A stretch of 37,829 nt of DNA, taken from positions 1 to 37,829 of the IMG/VR virus record IMGVR_UViG_3300046724_000212. One strand, written 5' to 3'. Origin of the DNA: a virus. This document shows positions 3,887 through 31,099 of this stretch, in pieces. The notes under the pieces were generated by a model. That model had not been told where the DNA came from, did not search any database, and saw only the letters and a list, made by a program, of their open reading frames with translations. How positions within the stretch are numbered: position 1 is the first letter of the stretch; the number at the start of each line of letters is the position of its first letter. The position numbers and the translations under genes were made by a program.

Positions 3887-4618
3887 ATGCCGCCCACCTA
3901 TTATTTGAAGGCCTCCAGAAGTCGGGGGCCTTCAAATGGCTTTTATACCGATTTTCCGCAGACCGAATCCTCGCTGAGTCAAGGCGGGGCATGGTTGAAT
4001 GGCCTGACCGTCGGCCAAGGCTGGATCGCCAATATGCAAACGACGGCGGGCCTTGCCTGGGGCACGCAATCGGGCGGCGCCGCACCGCCGGGCGATTCCA
4101 CGGCCATCTTGACGGGCTCCTGGCCCAACGATCAGCGCGTCATTGCGAAAGTCAAAACGGTCAATCAGCAGACCGGCAACGGCCCCACGGACACATACGA
4201 AGAACTCGAATTGCGCGTTAGGGCGCGGCTATATAACGGCCTCTTTTACGGCTACGGTGTCAATATCCGGTGCCAAACAGATAGCACGCGCTATGTGCAG
4301 ATGTCTCGGTGGGATGGCGACAATACGGTAGCGACGGGTCCAGCCGCACACTTCGCCGGCTCGCCACTTGGCGGCCCAAACCTCCCAGATAATACGATCT
4401 TAGGTCCGGGGCTCGTTGATGGCGATCTGATGATGCTGTCGATGATTGGCACATCGCTGCAGTTTTCCATTCAACATAACGGCGTCTGGTCCGTGGTGAA
4501 CACGATTACGGATGCCGTTTATGCATCGGGGGCACCTGGGATCGCGCACTGGTATCACGGGGCGTTGGGCGCGGCGAATGATTTCGGCTTTCGCAACTTC
4601 AGCGCGATGGCCACATAA
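3887..4618 (+). CDS. Hypothetical lectin-like virion protein
   Basis: A 243-residue protein that looks like a concanavalin-A/LamG-type beta sandwich: a soft call from phrases such as LFYGYGVNIRCQTDSTRYVQ, the long Gly/Pro loop LGGPNLPDNT, and LQFSIQHNGVWSVVNTITD, a pattern common in jelly-roll carbohydrate-binding modules. No signal peptide is seen. The ATG at 3887 has no clear Shine-Dalgarno site, and a perfect 11-bp inverted repeat (3903-3937) lies in its first codons, so the start may be internal to this call. The TAA overlaps the next ATG by one base. It probably binds glycans at the virion surface, by inference. Confidence 0.55.
   Translation: MPPTYYLKASRSRGPSNGFYTDFPQTESSLSQGGAWLNGLTVGQGWIANMQTTAGLAWGTQSGGAAPPGDSTAILTGSWPNDQRVIAKVKTVNQQTGNGPTDTYEELELRVRARLYNGLFYGYGVNIRCQTDSTRYVQMSRWDGDNTVATGPAAHFAGSPLGGPNLPDNTILGPGLVDGDLMMLSMIGTSLQFSIQHNGVWSVVNTITDAVYASGAPGIAHWYHGALGAANDFGFRNFSAMAT
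3903..3937. terminator. Perfect 11-bp inverted repeat, possible attenuator
   Basis: The arms ATTTGAAGGCC (3903-3913) and GGCCTTCAAAT (3927-3937) are exactly complementary around a 13-base loop, and a short T run follows three bases later (TTTT). It begins 44 bases after the stop of the 3359 gene. It could be a weak intrinsic terminator separating the coat cluster from the tail genes, or an attenuating hairpin over the start of the 3887 gene. The T run is short, so terminator strength is doubtful. Confidence 0.35.
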
Positions 4619-26116: not shown

Positions 26117-26304
26117 GGTTCCACCTTCCGGCCATCAACGCTGACGATTACTGCTCGCCCTGTTTTTTCGTCTATTTCTACGCCTAGAGCAACCTCATAG
26201 CAGGCATAGCAGAAATTCTCCAATGCATCATCTATAAGGCCAAGCTTACGTCCGATATCCGCGTTGTTGCTTTTACTACTGTGAACATAGATCGTGGTTT
26301 GCAT
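26113..26304 (-). CDS. Small hypothetical protein
   Basis: A 63-residue protein. The ATG at 26304 is preceded by GAGGAG with five bases of spacing and overlaps the stop of the recombination fusion gene by one base (TGATG); longer readings of this frame are shadow. The sequence opens MQTTIYVHSSKSNNADIGRK and contains ALENFCYACYEVALGVEIDE, then a two-strand end GRAVIVSVDGRKVEP. It looks like a compact alpha/beta protein. It is co-translated with the exonuclease-RecT fusion and so could be an accessory factor for it. Confidence 0.65.
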   Translation of the reverse strand: MQTTIYVHSSKSNNADIGRKLGLIDDALENFCYACYEVALGVEIDEKTGRAVIVSVDGRKVEP

Positions 26305-27722
26305 CAGAACTCCTCGGGAGAATAAAGGCCAGCCACGACATCGGGATACACCAGCCGAGCCAACTTCGAGGACGCTCGCGCGACGAGCATGTCCGATGGA
26401 TTCTTCGTCCAGCCACTGCCATTCTTCACGAGGCCAGCCGCTTGCGCTTCTTCGATTGTGTACCGCAGCTCCATCGGTTCTTCGCCTTCGCGCGTTGTCG
26501 TGAACGTTGCGGCCTGTGCCGTGCGCTCGGTGCACCGGAACGTCTTCGCCTTCCCAGATTTCAGCACGAGCGCCCTGAGAGCATCAGCCGCCATCGTCGG
26601 CTTGCCTTCGACGATATGGAAAGCGCGCAGGCTGGCCATAGCCGAGAGGCCCAATTCGCGGCCTGACAAGACCGTCGACAGCACCGCTTCTGGCGTGCCA
26701 TAGGCGCCAAACAGGCGAGCCTTAAATAGCAGTTGCGCCAGTTGCACGGCTTGGTTCATGCTCTGCGGCTCCAGCTGCCGTTCATAATCGCCGTTCATCG
26801 GCACGAGCGACATGCGCGGCGGCTCTGGCTTGATGGTTGATGCCTGTTCGATAAATGCGACTTGTTCCTCTGGCGTAAGTGTCGGCATCGCTTCTTCAAT
26901 GTCCTGCATAATCTCATCCTCGCGATCCATGGTCTGGCGTTCCTTCAGCACCTGGGCAAAGTCAATCGGCGCATCTTCGCGCAGGGACAACAATGCACGC
27001 ACCGTCGGCAGGCGAGGATAGAAAACTTCCAAGGCAGCGCGTTGCGCGGATTTGATGATCTCGGCGTTCTCGGCCGTGCCGATATTCGCGTATAAGGTAT
27101 CGATGTCCCCGAAGGCGTTGAGGATATGCACAGCACTTTTCGCGCCGATGCCCTTAACGCCGACGACGCCGTCTGACGCATCGCCGACCAACGTCAGGTA
27201 ATCGCGCATCTGATGCGGCGTTACGCCAAACTTTTCTTTGACGCCATCCGGCGACATGACGTTGCCAGTAATGGGGGATTTCACCATCACGTTTTCCGTC
27301 ACCAGTTGCAGCAAATCCTTATCGGCGCTGATGATGAGAATGGGTAGCGAAGGAAACGACGGGAGCAGAGTCTTTGGGCCGATGGCATTCGCCACAGCGC
27401 TGGCGATGATGTCATCAGCCTCAAAGCCTTCGGCCATCCACTGTGGGAAGCCGTCACCCTTCAACGTCTCCAGCGCCAGTTCGCACTGATGGAAGAATGG
27501 GGCCGGCTTGCTTTCCCTTGCCGCCTTATACGTCGCGTCCATCTCGCGGCGGAATGACTTGGGCGAATCCAGGCAGAGGGCGGCATGCGACTGGCCAGAC
27601 GTCAGGGCGCGCACCTTGGCGATGATGCCGATGGACGTCGCGTCTGGATTCGGATCGCTTGCACTGACATGCCAGATAGGATGGCAAATCGACGAAAAAT
27701 CGATGAGAACTATCTGCTTCAT
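26304..27722 (-). CDS. 5'-3' exonuclease (flap endonuclease family) fused to a RecT-like annealing domain
   Basis: A 472-residue protein. The ATG at 27722 has GGAG nine bases upstream and overlaps the HNH gene stop (ATGA). Residues 1-about 250 are a PolA/T5-type 5'-3' exonuclease: IDFSS (7-11), GFEADDIIASA (99-109), IISADKDLLQL (130-140), GDASDGVVGVKGIGAKSA (180-197), the last being the helix-hairpin-helix after the metal ligands. Residues about 318-472 resemble RecT-superfamily annealing proteins: GTPEAVLSTVLSGRELGLSA, FHIVEGKPTMAADALRALVL, and the end KNPSDMLVARASSKLARLVY with PDVVAGLY. A charged linker (about 260-318) joins them. The enzyme would resect a 5' end and anneal the strand it exposes. 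The exonuclease call is firm; the RecT call is by pattern. Confidence 0.85.
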   Translation of the reverse strand: MKQIVLIDFSSICHPIWHVSASDPNPDATSIGIIAKVRALTSGQSHAALCLDSPKSFRREMDATYKAARESKPAPFFHQCELALETLKGDGFPQWMAEGFEADDIIASAVANAIGPKTLLPSFPSLPILIISADKDLLQLVTENVMVKSPITGNVMSPDGVKEKFGVTPHQMRDYLTLVGDASDGVVGVKGIGAKSAVHILNAFGDIDTLYANIGTAENAEIIKSAQRAALEVFYPRLPTVRALLSLREDAPIDFAQVLKERQTMDREDEIMQDIEEAMPTLTPEEQVAFIEQASTIKPEPPRMSLVPMNGDYERQLEPQSMNQAVQLAQLLFKARLFGAYGTPEAVLSTVLSGRELGLSAMASLRAFHIVEGKPTMAADALRALVLKSGKAKTFRCTERTAQAATFTTTREGEEPMELRYTIEEAQAAGLVKNGSGWTKNPSDMLVARASSKLARLVYPDVVAGLYSPEEF

Positions 27723-28201
27723 TTCACATGGCTCCAATGAAATCCAGTTGTGATATTACGCACTTGGCTTTTACTAATTGGAGTCACTGCCGAAATCTTC
27801 CGAGCCGACCAGCCATCACCATAGAGTTTCCGAATCCTTCTCACAATATAAGGCGTGATCTTTGCTGCGGGATTCTCAGCGCCAACGAGATTCTTTTCGC
27901 GCTTCCAGCGTCCACGGCGAACCATGTCAGCGCTATTGTCGGCTGGCGTTCCAATATAAAGGTGCAGAGGATTACAACAGATCGGCACGTCGCACCGATG
28001 TAATACGCATGTGCCTTTTCTTAGGCGCTCGCTATGCGCCAATTCATATGCCACTCGATGTGCTTTCAGCATTCGATTGTTGTGGCTAACCGCGCCGTAA
28101 CCATGCGCATCTATAGCGCCAGTCCACAGACAACAGCCGTGATGGTTCTTTGTCGAAATGCGCATCGCGAATCTATGGACAAATTCTTTTCCGTAAATCA
28201 T
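27719..28201 (-). CDS. HNH endonuclease, homing type
   Basis: A 160-residue DNA endonuclease. The ATG at 28201 is preceded by GAGGTG at five bases. The HNH core is clear: CCLWTGAIDAHGYGAVSHNN at the start of the domain, then KAHRVAYELAH, VLHRCDVPICCNPLHLYIGT (residues about 93-112) and PADNSADMVRRGRW. The C-terminal NPAAKITPYIVRRIRKLYGD, then a helix-turn-helix-like GWSARKISAVTPISKSQVRN, is the usual DNA-binding end of free-standing phage HNH homing enzymes. It lies between the lipoprotein and the exonuclease-RecT gene with four-base overlaps on both sides. No intron or intein is seen nearby. Confidence 0.92.
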   Translation of the reverse strand: MIYGKEFVHRFAMRISTKNHHGCCLWTGAIDAHGYGAVSHNNRMLKAHRVAYELAHSERLRKGTCVLHRCDVPICCNPLHLYIGTPADNSADMVRRGRWKREKNLVGAENPAAKITPYIVRRIRKLYGDGWSARKISAVTPISKSQVRNITTGFHWSHVK

Positions 28202-28683
28202 CGGTTCACCTCGCACGTCACGGTCTCGCCCAGCACGGGATGCGTCCCCGGCGGGCACCCCTGCGGCGGCGTATCGATCGCGCAATACGGGGCATCGCCT
28301 TTGAGTTCAGCATGTGTCCCCGGCGGACACGTCGGCGGCTGGGGTGGCGGCGTGCAGGCCATCTTTCCGCAAGGGCCATCCGGCGGCGGGGGCGGCGCTT
28401 GGTTCACCAACGGCGGCGCAGGGGCCACAACGGGCGCGGGCGGGGCCTGGATGGGCGCAGGCGCGACCGGAGCCGGCGCGGCAGGCACAGGGGGCGGGTC
28501 GGGCGCTGGCGTTACCACGGGGGCCACAGGGGCCGGCGCAGGAGGCACCGCGGCCGGCGTCACGAGCACGGCGGGGGCGCTGGTGGCGGCGATGCTGGGC
28601 GCGGTCGGCATGGCTGAGACGCCTGCGCAGGCCGAGAGACTGACGCTGACTCCGACGATTAGGGCGATTCCAAGCGATTTCAT
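28198..28683 (-). CDS. Proline-rich lipoprotein with CPPGTH repeats
   Basis: A 161-residue protein with a type II signal peptide: MKSLGIALIVGVSVSLSAC, lipobox LSAC, acylation at Cys19. Residues 25-100 are a rigid Pro/Ala/Val stretch. The C-terminal 60 residues hold six or seven Cys and two copies of CPPGTH (TCPPGTHAEL and GCPPGTHPVL), likely a small disulphide-bonded domain. A strong AAGGAG lies five bases before the ATG. Proline-rich lipoproteins act as outer spanins in some phages, but this one is long, Cys-rich and in an early operon, so a surface exclusion or envelope role is equally possible. Confidence 0.75.
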   Translation of the reverse strand: MKSLGIALIVGVSVSLSACAGVSAMPTAPSIAATSAPAVLVTPAAVPPAPAPVAPVVTPAPDPPPVPAAPAPVAPAPIQAPPAPVVAPAPPLVNQAPPPPPDGPCGKMACTPPPQPPTCPPGTHAELKGDAPYCAIDTPPQGCPPGTHPVLGETVTCEVNR

Positions 28684-28803: not shown

Positions 28804-28916
28804 CATCGCAACCCCGCCAGCAGCCACAAAGCAATGGAGCAGCCACAGAGCAGGCCAATGACCACGATGACGAACACGTCAAACACGTCGTCCCAGGTGC
28901 GCGGCAGGCGGATCAT
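28803..28916 (-). CDS. Very small membrane protein (37 residues)
   Basis: The ATG at 28916 overlaps the upstream TAA (TAATG) and has GGAGGAA upstream inside the preceding gene. The sequence opens MIRLPRTWDDVFDVFVIVVI and continues GLLCGCSIALWLLAGLR, giving one membrane span with a basic N-terminus. Its coupling to both neighbours in the minus-strand operon supports it as a real gene. The role is unknown. Confidence 0.55.
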   Translation of the reverse strand: MIRLPRTWDDVFDVFVIVVIGLLCGCSIALWLLAGLR

Positions 28917-29101
28917 TACAATTCCTCCAAGGCTTTGTAATAGTCGTCGCGGCACTTGTCGCTGCAGAAGGCATACTGCCCATTGCCCGCCCAGATGGCC
29001 TCATTAGCCGGTTCGCCGCAGGTTTCGCAGTTGGGTTCTTCGCGTTCCGGGCTTAGCGCGTTGTCGTCGTCGGCGTCGGGTTCCTGACTCCAGCGGCTCA
29101 T
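28916..29101 (-). CDS. Small zinc-finger protein
   Basis: A 61-residue protein with an acidic N-terminus (SQEPDADDDNALSPEREEP) and a C-terminal CETCGEPANEAIWAGNGQYA then FCSDKCRDDYY. The CxxC...CxxxC spacing with FCSDKC matches the TRASH/MYM-like treble-clef type. GGAGGTG lies five bases before the ATG, and that ATG overlaps the upstream stop (ATGA). It is probably a small nucleic-acid or protein-binding zinc protein of the early operon. Confidence 0.7.
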   Translation of the reverse strand: MSRWSQEPDADDDNALSPEREEPNCETCGEPANEAIWAGNGQYAFCSDKCRDDYYKALEEL

Positions 29102-29346
29102 AACACCTCCACGGTGAAATCGTCCAGTTCGAGGCCCAGCTCATTCACAGCGTAGATATTCGCGGACGTAATGAGGTCGAATCGCTGCGCGTGTGTCGTG
29201 TCCTGCGTCCAGTGCCGATTGGGGCTGGCGTAGATGCCAGACGTGAGGCGCACCGCATAGCTCGGGCGGCTGGTGGCGACCATCGCGGCTTCGGCCCGCG
29301 ACAGCGCCGTGAGGGTGGCAAACAGGTGCTTTGAAATGTTGTCCAT
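29098..29346 (-). CDS. First gene of the minus-strand early operon, hypothetical
   Basis: An 82-residue protein of unknown function (MDNISKHLFATLTALSRAEA ... NELGLELDDFTVEVL). It has no Shine-Dalgarno site: the bases before the ATG are CCTCTC. A near-consensus promoter ends six bases upstream of the ATG, so the transcript should start at or next to the A of the ATG and be leaderless. Twelve further genes follow with overlaps or short gaps down to 23812. Control by the neighbouring ribbon-helix-helix protein is inferred from the operators in the promoter. Confidence 0.65.
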   Translation of the reverse strand: MDNISKHLFATLTALSRAEAAMVATSRPSYAVRLTSGIYASPNRHWTQDTTHAQRFDLITSANIYAVNELGLELDDFTVEVL

Positions 29347-29352
29347 GAGAGG

Positions 29353-29381
29353 AGCTTACTAGCACTTGCTAGCGTTGTCAA
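29353..29381 (-). promoter_or_regulatory. Promoter of the minus-strand early operon (leaderless)
   Basis: The -35 box TTGACA (29381-29376) is consensus. A 17-base spacer and then the -10 box TAAGCT (29358-29353) follow. Six bases later the ATG of the first operon gene begins (29346), where transcription should start. A perfect operator palindrome fills 14 of the 17 spacer bases. Confidence 0.8.
29359..29372. promoter_or_regulatory. Operator O1 (perfect palindrome)
   Basis: CTAGCA-CT-TGCTAG: 6-bp arms, exactly complementary, centred at 29365.5 between the -35 and -10 boxes. It shares its half-site with O3 and O4. Confidence 0.75.
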
Positions 29382-29392
29382 GCACTATCTAA
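29379..29392. promoter_or_regulatory. Operator O2 (degenerate copy)
   Basis: CAAGCACTATCTAA retains AGCACT and CTA of the consensus and is centred at 29385.5, exactly 20 bp from O1. It overlaps the -35 box. It is weaker evidence on its own than by its spacing. Confidence 0.5.
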
Positions 29393-29576
29393 TATCGCCA
29401 GCACGGCTAATGTTCGCGAGTTTTATATACTCTTGTAAAATTTCAGCAAGGGCCTGAGAAATCGTGCAACTGCGGAGCGCGGCTTCGATTTTGAGGTGTT
29501 GCGTTAATTTCCTAGGAAAATCGCGCAGATATAGGACATGGCTTTCAGTGCGGGGATGGTGGGGGCGTTTGGACAT
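29385..29576 (-). CDS. Ribbon-helix-helix (Arc/CopG-type) repressor
   Basis: A 63-residue DNA-binding protein. The ATG at 29576 is chosen because the preceding reading of the frame is basic shadow and a promoter lies just upstream. Residues 11-18 (ESHVLYLR) are the DNA-contacting beta strand, 21-35 helix A (RKLTQHLKIEAALRS) and 38-52 helix B (ISQALAEILQEYI), the standard fold of Arc/CopG repressors, which bind as dimers to palindromic half-sites through the paired strands. Palindromes of one family lie in its own promoter (O3, O4) and in the next promoter (O1, O2). It is thus probably an autorepressor and the switch for the early operon. No Shine-Dalgarno site is present. Confidence 0.75.
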   Translation of the reverse strand: MSKRPHHPRTESHVLYLRDFPRKLTQHLKIEAALRSCTISQALAEILQEYIKLANISRAGDIR

Positions 29577-29583
29577 ACCGCAC

Positions 29584-29613
29584 AATCTAGCACGTGCGAT
29601 ATGCTTATAGCAA
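29584..29613 (-). promoter_or_regulatory. Promoter of the repressor gene (leaderless, weaker)
   Basis: -35 box TTGCTA (29613-29608), 18-base spacer, -10 box TAGATT (29589-29584). The ATG follows seven bases after the -10 box, so the transcript would start at or near it. Both boxes match consensus only partly, but both are covered by operators. Confidence 0.5.
29587..29600. promoter_or_regulatory. Operator O3
   Basis: CTAGCA-CG-TGCGAT, one perfect half-site and one with two changes, centred at 29593.5 and overlapping the -10 box and spacer of the repressor promoter. Confidence 0.6.
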
Positions 29614-29620
29614 GTGCTAT
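29607..29620. promoter_or_regulatory. Operator O4 (perfect palindrome)
   Basis: ATAGCA-AG-TGCTAT, exact 6-bp arms, centred at 29613.5, 20 bp from O3. It overlaps the -35 box of the repressor promoter and the stop codon of the holin-like gene. Confidence 0.7.
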
Positions 29621-29877
29621 GGCTTAGTTTCTTCGGTCTTCGCCTGTTCCAGCACTTGCACGGCCTGCGCGGGTGCCATCTTCGCAATCGGCTGCACCTG
29701 CCCGCGCGTGATTTGACTCCCGACGCCGAAGATCGCCGCGGCCAATGCGCCAATCGCGGAAATCTGCGGCAGCGTCAGCTTCGCGCCGAATGCGACGGCG
29801 ACCACGATGATCGCATTCAGGATCGCCATCGCGCGCACGGGCTCCGTGCGGATAAATGCCGAAAAGGATTGCATCAT
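29617..29877 (-). CDS. Holin-like membrane protein
   Basis: An 86-residue protein with an N-terminal MQSFSAFIRTEPVRAMAILN, a first span NAIIVVAVAFGAKLTL, a second QISAIGALAAAIFGVGSQIT, and a charged Gln/Lys tail. Two short spans with a polar C-terminus, a short PVRA lead and a size below 100 residues fit small phage holins. The start overlaps the 44-residue gene upstream (ATGA). It lies behind a putative glycosidase, as lysis genes usually do. The holin call rests on topology and neighbours only. Confidence 0.65.
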   Translation of the reverse strand: MMQSFSAFIRTEPVRAMAILNAIIVVAVAFGAKLTLPQISAIGALAAAIFGVGSQITRGQVQPIAKMAPAQAVQVLEQAKTEETKP

Positions 29878-30016: not shown

Positions 30017-31099
30017 CTAATGTCCGTTGCCGCTGCCGCTCACCTTCGTGCCGTTGACGGCGGGCGCATTGATGGCCAGCCGGCCGATGCGATTACCTTC
30101 CGCTTCGCTACAACTGCCATTAAACTGCGTCATCGCCGTGAGTTCCAGCGCGACGAAATCAAAGCCGGCCACCATGCCCCAGCCACCAGCGAAGCGTTCG
30201 AGGCAATCGTTGATGCTGTCCAGAAATTCCGCATCGGTCTGTGCGATCCGCTTCTGATAGAGCAGGCCCGTCAGCTTGCCGACGTTGGGATTCCAGAAAT
30301 CTGCGACGACGCCGCCGGGCTGTTGAAAGCTCGGATACCCCTCCTGGAAATGCACATACACGAGCGTGCCCGCTTGCGCCATGCAGAGCGGACTGAGCGC
30401 GTTGATCATGTCCTGCACTTGCGTGGGAGTACGCCACAACGACAACTCCCAGCCGATGCAGAACATCGGCACGGTGCCCACGAGCGCATTGATGACGGGC
30501 GTGAGATTGTCGACGAGCGTCGGTGTATCGTAGGTGCTATCGAAGTCTTTTGAACTGAGCATCACGCACGGATAGAATCCATCGTCGATCAACTCTTTGC
30601 ATGTCGCTAGGAACGATTCCGGTGTGGCCCCTTGCCCATGGCTATCCGGCCATGAGAGCAGGACATGCGTGTAGTCCTTGACTTGCCATTGTCCGCGAAT
30701 CGCCGCGCGCCAGCCCGTGTCGTAGCGGTCATAGAACCAGGAGAGCAGCAGTGACGGGTCCGCCGCGCCACCAGGCACAGGGGGCAGCCCCGGAATTCGG
30801 ATGCCGCACATGTTCGCGGCCCAGAACCGCGGGGCAGGCTTAAAAGGGTCGACGGCTCCACGCTCGAGGCCCGTCACCACTTCGCCGCTCTCGCCAATCG
30901 TGGCCGGATAGGTGCGAATCGCAAAGCCATACGCCTGAAACGTCATGTCATACGTCGTCGCGCCGAGTGTCGTTTTGCAATCGCCGCACGCATTCGTCAC
31001 GGAGGACCAGTCGCCCATCGTCGTGGATTTCCCGCTGACGACGGCGCCGCCGATCGGTTTCCCCTCCGGGTCTTGTACATGCCACACCACAAAGGCCAT
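30017..31099 (-). CDS. Putative endolysin or glycosidase: Ig-like domain plus TIM-barrel-like domain
   Basis: A 360-residue protein. Residues 1-80 look like a carboxypeptidase-regulatory/Ig-like sandwich (HVQDPEGKPIGGAVVSGKST, ATTYDMTFQAYGFAIRTYPA). Residues about 95-330 suggest a glycosidase-type (beta/alpha) barrel: SWFYDRYDTGWRAAIRGQWQ, DYTHVLLSWPDSHGQGATPE, DGFYPCVMLSSKDFDS, VPMFCIGWELSLWRTP (a candidate catalytic Glu on a strand end), TLVYVHFQEGYPSF. There is no signal peptide. It lies between a coiled-coil membrane gene and the holin-like gene on the same strand, which is why a cell-wall lytic role is proposed. No standard lysozyme, amidase or peptidase motif is visible. Confidence 0.55.
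   Translation of the reverse strand: MAFVVWHVQDPEGKPIGGAVVSGKSTTMGDWSSVTNACGDCKTTLGATTYDMTFQAYGFAIRTYPATIGESGEVVTGLERGAVDPFKPAPRFWAANMCGIRIPGLPPVPGGAADPSLLLSWFYDRYDTGWRAAIRGQWQVKDYTHVLLSWPDSHGQGATPESFLATCKELIDDGFYPCVMLSSKDFDSTYDTPTLVDNLTPVINALVGTVPMFCIGWELSLWRTPTQVQDMINALSPLCMAQAGTLVYVHFQEGYPSFQQPGGVVADFWNPNVGKLTGLLYQKRIAQTDAEFLDSINDCLERFAGGWGMVAGFDFVALELTAMTQFNGSCSEAEGNRIGRLAINAPAVNGTKVSGSGNGH

Follow-up and report, generated by a model that had tools for sequence, protein, structure and literature searches.

Gene organization of the locus

The window, the whole stretch of DNA analysed here, is one whole viral record of 37,829 bases, and the locus under study lies on its minus strand. It comprises a gene for a 63-amino-acid (aa) protein, a probable ribbon-helix-helix (RHH) repressor, and an operon that begins with a gene for an 82-aa protein. 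The genes of the region are as follows.

30017-31099, upstream of the 63-aa gene: possible fibre or hydrolase gene (family scans)
29617-29877, upstream of the 63-aa gene: holin-like gene (family scans)
29385-29576, minus strand: 63-aa probable RHH repressor gene (open frame, codon-position constraint, homologs, weak RHH matches)
29098-29346, minus strand: first operon gene, 82 aa (59-99% identity to homologs at 15 further viral loci; one additional match is partial)
28916-29101, minus strand: second operon gene, 61 aa, a small cysteine/zinc-finger-like protein (sub-threshold zf-FLZ and DUF7576 matches)
28198-28683, minus strand: proline-rich lipoprotein-like protein (family scans)
27719-28285, minus strand: HNH endonuclease (family scans)
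26304-27737, minus strand: 5'-3' exonuclease fused to a RecT-like domain (family scans)

The 82-aa protein gave no match in a Pfam scan and weak matches to PHROGs, and the 61-aa gene is preceded by a Shine-Dalgarno (SD) sequence, GGAG. In the protein encoded at 26304-27737, the 5'-3' exonuclease occupies residues 9-262 and the RecT-like annealing domain residues 323-477, and relatives of this protein were found in 15 loci. The lipoprotein-like, HNH and exonuclease-RecT genes (26304-28683) are probably carried on the same transcript as the operon. Relatives of the locus were collected by searches with the 82-aa, 86-aa and 477-aa neighbours, and 18 related viral contigs were compared with the window, giving a set of 19 records of about 0.55 Mb. 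CTAG is strongly avoided in the window as a whole: base composition predicts about 135 copies, and 16 are present.

Two promoters with a predicted leaderless layout

The promoters and candidate operators lie on the minus strand around the 63-aa gene.

29577-29613, minus strand: repressor promoter TTGCTA-18-TAGATT, predicted leaderless; TTGCTA (29613-29608), 18 bp, TAGATT (29589-29584), GTGCGGT, ATG (29576)
29607-29620, minus strand: operator 1, ATAGCACTTGCTAT, with a perfect TAGCANNTGCTA; overlaps the repressor -35 box (TTGCTA, 29608-29613)
29587-29600, minus strand: operator 2, ATCGCACGTGCTAG, one mismatch; overlaps the repressor -10 box (TAGATT, 29584-29589)
29347-29381, minus strand: operon promoter TTGACA-17-TAAGCT, predicted leaderless; TTGACA (29381-29376), ACG+CTAGCAAGTGCTAG as 17-bp spacer, TAAGCT (29358-29353), CCTCTC, ATG (29346)
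29359-29372, minus strand: operator 3, CTAGCAAGTGCTAG, a perfect palindrome within the operon promoter spacer
29376-29386, minus strand: half-site AGTGCT fused to the -35 box, AGTGCTTGACA, invariant in seven aligned RHH sequences

In a fixed scan, the operon promoter was the sole TTGACA/TAnnnT promoter near an ATG in the window. An earlier note on this DNA had described a perfect palindrome filling the operon spacer between TTGACA and TAAGCT, copies covering both boxes of the repressor promoter, and start codons six or seven bases past the -10 box; all three are read directly from the sequence, the distance being 6 nt at the operon and 7 nt at the 63-aa gene. Neither ATG is preceded by an SD sequence, as the note had also stated, but this is a weaker clue to leaderless transcription than it had taken it to be: while some internal operon genes have an SD sequence (GGAG, AAGGAG), many genes across this phage lack one, and SD absence was therefore given less weight. 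The same promoter-to-ATG distance recurs at the operon promoter of 17 records (the window and 16 relatives), where it is 6 nt, or 7 in one. In three relatives (L055, L056 and L095), the 82-aa gene is separated from the promoter by a different, inserted gene whose ATG again lies 6 nt after the -10 box, which supports leaderless transcripts. Taken together, both transcripts are likely to start at the ATG. The inserted first genes themselves resemble variable accessory slots, and family searches with them gave no explanatory match.

Palindromic sites in the two promoters

Perfect 12-bp TAGCA-NN-TGCTA palindromes were found at 29360-29371 and 29608-29619, together with a one-mismatch copy at 29588-29599. 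The earlier reading of four palindromes in two pairs, each with centres 20 bp apart, needed revision. Three good copies are present and the centres of operators 1 and 2 are exactly 20 bp apart, but the claimed fourth copy at 29380-29391, the second member of the operon pair, is a half-site and not a palindrome: it has 3 mismatches in 10 positions in the window type, the corresponding place in the other RHH types has 4-5, and relatives conserve only its right half, AGTGCT, joined to TTGACA. Matches with at most one mismatch numbered four in 37.8 kb, three of them within 260 bp; because the motif was derived from these very sites, the relatives provide the fair test rather than the chance count in the window. 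The lone off-site match, TAGCACGCGCTA at 4282-4293, lies within a plus-strand gene and probably arose by chance.

The operon promoter also repeats itself at a lag of 10 bp, where its self-identity of 49% was reached in 1 of 5000 shuffles, and at a lag of 20 bp (28 of 5000), values that are uncorrected for the number of lags tried; the repressor promoter alone fell short at those lags in the same shuffle test. This repeat points to CTAG-like boxes spaced by one helical turn in the operon promoter; with such boxes 10 bp apart in a 12-bp palindrome, a pair of RHH dimers per palindrome would be a better fit than one dimer. A per-promoter palindrome shuffle test gave P values of 0.0035 and 0.002 for the promoters of the variant loci G005 and G008, respectively, and of about 0.1 at best for the RHH type, for which it is weak or blind because the central bases do not pair.

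The sites are retained in relatives that carry the RHH gene

The RHH gene was present in 14 of the 19 records, window included. TAGCANNTGCTA with at most one mismatch occurred in 13 of these 14, almost only at the two promoters, and once in total in the five records lacking the gene, where the reversed control pattern occurred 13 times. In seven aligned sequences, AGTGCTTGACA-NN-GCTAGC and the TGCTAG of operator 2 are invariant, whereas identity at the third codon positions of the gene is just 35-47%. Against the window, five relatives with a 52-aa version of the protein showed 89-93% identity over the 55 bp that end at the repressor ATG, 86-89% over the operon promoter (73% in L052 and L092) and 40-47% at third codon positions of the gene. 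Since the promoters are more conserved than third codon positions, selection appears to hold them.

Operator 1 is retained with at most one mismatch in the 63-aa and 52-aa types, and is not retained in L094 and L096, in both of which the repressor promoter is arranged differently. In L094, which still has the gene, the operon site is weaker, with 2 mismatches, and in L052 and L092 the halves of the operon operator are 5 bp apart instead of 2. Apart from divergence in these four relatives, the sites persist where the gene is kept; their loss from such relatives was the outcome that the earlier note had named as contrary to its proposal. Putative operators are thus present in the promoters of both the regulator and its predicted target.

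The 63-aa protein probably adopts a ribbon-helix-helix fold

The 63-aa gene has homologs in 13 other viral records. Identity between the 63-aa and 52-aa versions at the first, second and third codon positions was 0.71-0.76, 0.87 and 0.40-0.47, a pattern of coding constraint that indicates a real protein gene. The homologs fall into four main sequence types (63 aa, 52 aa, L094 and L096), which are 49-67% identical in the pairs compared, and their pattern of H-x-LYLR-x-FP followed by two helices is compatible with an RHH protein. The best family and profile matches were nearly all to RHH proteins and each was weak, lying below the curated cutoff for 56B_RHH (E 0.17), RHH_10 (0.036), an Arc-like PHROG (0.069) and, in two members, a FitA-like RHH family (E 0.014-0.16). 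The RHH profile also picked up a protein of G008, which itself matches an Arc-like PHROG (E 2e-4). The sole PDB profile match, to SvtR of Sulfolobus virus SIRV1 (2kel), was not significant (E 0.64). AlphaFold monomer models contained two confident helices and gave the expected N-terminal strand as a helix at lower confidence, and Foldseek matches to CopG, AvtR, Arc and VapB all had E above 1. An Arc/CopG-type RHH fold is likely but not proven. A bacterial genome scan with the RHH alignment found no homolog, and a phage database contained no match to the 52-aa RHH protein or to the 45-aa protein described below.

The predicted regulator and its candidate operators are replaced together

In L061/G003 and L095/G007, the RHH gene is absent and an unrelated 45-aa basic protein (MSKN.HAQALGRLGGKVSSP...) stands in its place. 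Both promoters hold their place and spacing, and the spacer now carries CCAAGCGCTTCG or CCAAGCGCTTTG. This new palindrome, CCAAGCGCTTNG, occurred in exact form four times in the 19 records, in every case at these promoters of L061/G003 and L095/G007. Thus, the candidate operators changed when the predicted regulator changed. This joint replacement of protein and operators, like the sites, promoter geometry, conservation and coding constraint, is observed directly.

Other variants were less regular. In G005, which encodes a homolog of the 45-aa protein, a perfect CCTAAGCGCTTAGG occupies the same operon spacer, and, because the cores are alike, the operon-promoter palindrome CTAAGCGCTTAG was expected at the promoter of this homolog. 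The prediction failed: the homolog's own promoter lacks CTAAGCGCTTAG, which shows that not every protein-operator pairing is explained by the exchange of a regulator with its operators. Read by eye, about 515-730 on the reverse strand of L107 (G005) presents a second cassette-like arrangement, with the homolog between two TTGACA promoters that share CGAA-N4/5-TTCG. Near the G005 locus, long repeats rich in GGCGTGG and GAGACACGGC occupy about 4500-4850 of L069 and the reverse strand of L107 from about 730, and no clear reading frame was seen in these stretches. The G008 operon promoter carries a 20-bp near-palindrome around ATACGTAT, of which a second copy is absent, and the G008 RHH gene is far away. 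In G009, a gene with weak helix-turn-helix matches lies directly behind a promoter. That the G005, G008 and G009 promoters also belong to such cassettes is offered as a suggestion only.

A proposed self-limiting repressor-operator cassette

The reading that we favour, and consider quite probable from these comparisons, is that a small autoregulating repressor, most likely of the RHH type, brakes both itself and a nuclease/recombinase operon as part of an exchangeable repressor-operator cassette. Binding, repression, fold, transcript starts, timing and target function enter this model as predictions. The 63-aa protein would bind TAGCA-NN-TGCTA as a dimer, probably with one dimer per CTAG-like half. 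At its own promoter, where the sites cover the -35 and -10 boxes, binding would result in negative autoregulation; at the operon promoter, repressor bound between the -35 and -10 boxes of a strong sigma-70 promoter would exclude RNA polymerase and turn off the operon, which begins with the 82-aa gene and probably includes the HNH nuclease and the exonuclease-RecT protein. When repressor is lacking, for example on entry of the phage DNA, the strong operon promoter would fire, and the accumulating repressor would then brake the operon, producing a self-limiting burst. Regulator and operators would move among related phages as one exchangeable unit.

An immunity function was considered because the exchange of repressor and operators resembles the heterogeneity of immunity regions in temperate phages. 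The RHH protein would then be the immunity repressor of a lysogeny/lysis switch. However, the tyrosine integrase and serine recombinase models (PF00589 and PF00239) had no match in the window or in 11 relatives (12 records, which may be fragments), and the RHH alignment had no bacterial genome match. We therefore regard this reading as unlikely, and the word "switch" used in the earlier note is unsupported in its lysogeny sense. Alternatively, the palindromes could be sites of a host regulator with the small protein a bystander, as they are conserved and placed where host RNA polymerase binds; a host factor would not predict that a new protein brings a new palindrome to both promoters, as in two relatives, and this makes the host-regulator explanation very unlikely.

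Gene order and size are also like those of RelBE-type operons, in which case the RHH protein would be the autoregulating antitoxin and the 82-aa protein the toxin of a type II toxin-antitoxin system. RHH antitoxins do autoregulate through palindromes (PMC2812701), and the weak FitA-like matches point the same way. Yet the 82-aa gene has its own promoter, persists where the 45-aa protein takes the place of the RHH gene (L061, L089) and persists in L069, where the RHH gene is absent at that place; moreover, the 52-aa RHH version is nearly without a tail for toxin binding. As the 82-aa gene remains when the RHH gene is gone, the toxin-antitoxin reading was rejected as highly improbable. We gave the least credence to the idea that the protein binds these sites mainly as an activator or DNA organiser. 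Some RHH proteins both activate and repress, as AmrZ does (PMC3325190), but the operator considered here falls between a perfect TTGACA and a -10 box set 17 bp away, a position from which a bound protein would be expected to block polymerase.

Relation to known regulators

The component parts of the proposed cassette are of known kinds; what is new is the exchangeable leaderless cassette. P22 Arc is a small dimeric phage repressor whose palindromic operators overlap a promoter. The present locus resembles Arc and other small RHH phage repressors in its small protein of dimeric type, palindromic operators and promoter overlap; it differs from Arc in having no above-cutoff sequence match, CTAG-like boxes 10 bp apart, a predicted leaderless operon and no sign of lysogeny. 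SvtR is likewise a viral RHH regulator, but it comes from an archaeal virus, and its match here is not significant. With RelB/relO and CopG-type autoregulators, the locus shares 12-bp palindromes built from two short boxes and, as predicted here, autoregulation by dimers placed along the same face of the helix (for RelB, PMC2812701). In relO, the palindromes are directly adjacent and RelB works with a co-repressor toxin (PMC2812701), whereas the palindrome centres are 20 bp apart here and a toxin partner is not kept. Like the Aca regulators, the putative repressor is a small phage protein with inverted repeats in a promoter and an early operon that it would brake (PMC10901769); in the AcrIIA15 case, one inverted repeat lies between the -35 and -10 boxes (PMC10901769). 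All known Aca proteins are of the helix-turn-helix class (PMC10901769), whereas the sequence evidence here points to a probable RHH regulator, whose gene has a separate promoter upstream. None of the operon genes is known to encode an anti-CRISPR, and family scans of the neighbouring genes gave no informative match.

A broader proposal is that these phages, which lack recognisable integrases, maintain an interchangeable brake slot, in which unrelated small DNA-binding proteins are each paired with the same leaderless promoter, its spacer changed to carry the matching operator, ahead of variable and possibly anti-defence first genes. We hold this as tentative, at somewhat less than an even chance. 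The relatives constitute a natural promoter series in which the -35, -10 and ATG geometry is constant and the operator in the spacer varies; for at least two of these operators, the small protein differs as well. Such a series would permit tests of modular repressor-operator exchange and of the evolution of RHH specificity, and would allow one to ask whether Aca-like brakes on early genes occur outside helix-turn-helix proteins. It also supplies a few putative repressors, possibly orthogonal to one another, together with predicted leaderless promoters. The paired palindrome turned up in 44 stretches of public viral contigs, some of them outside this phage group.
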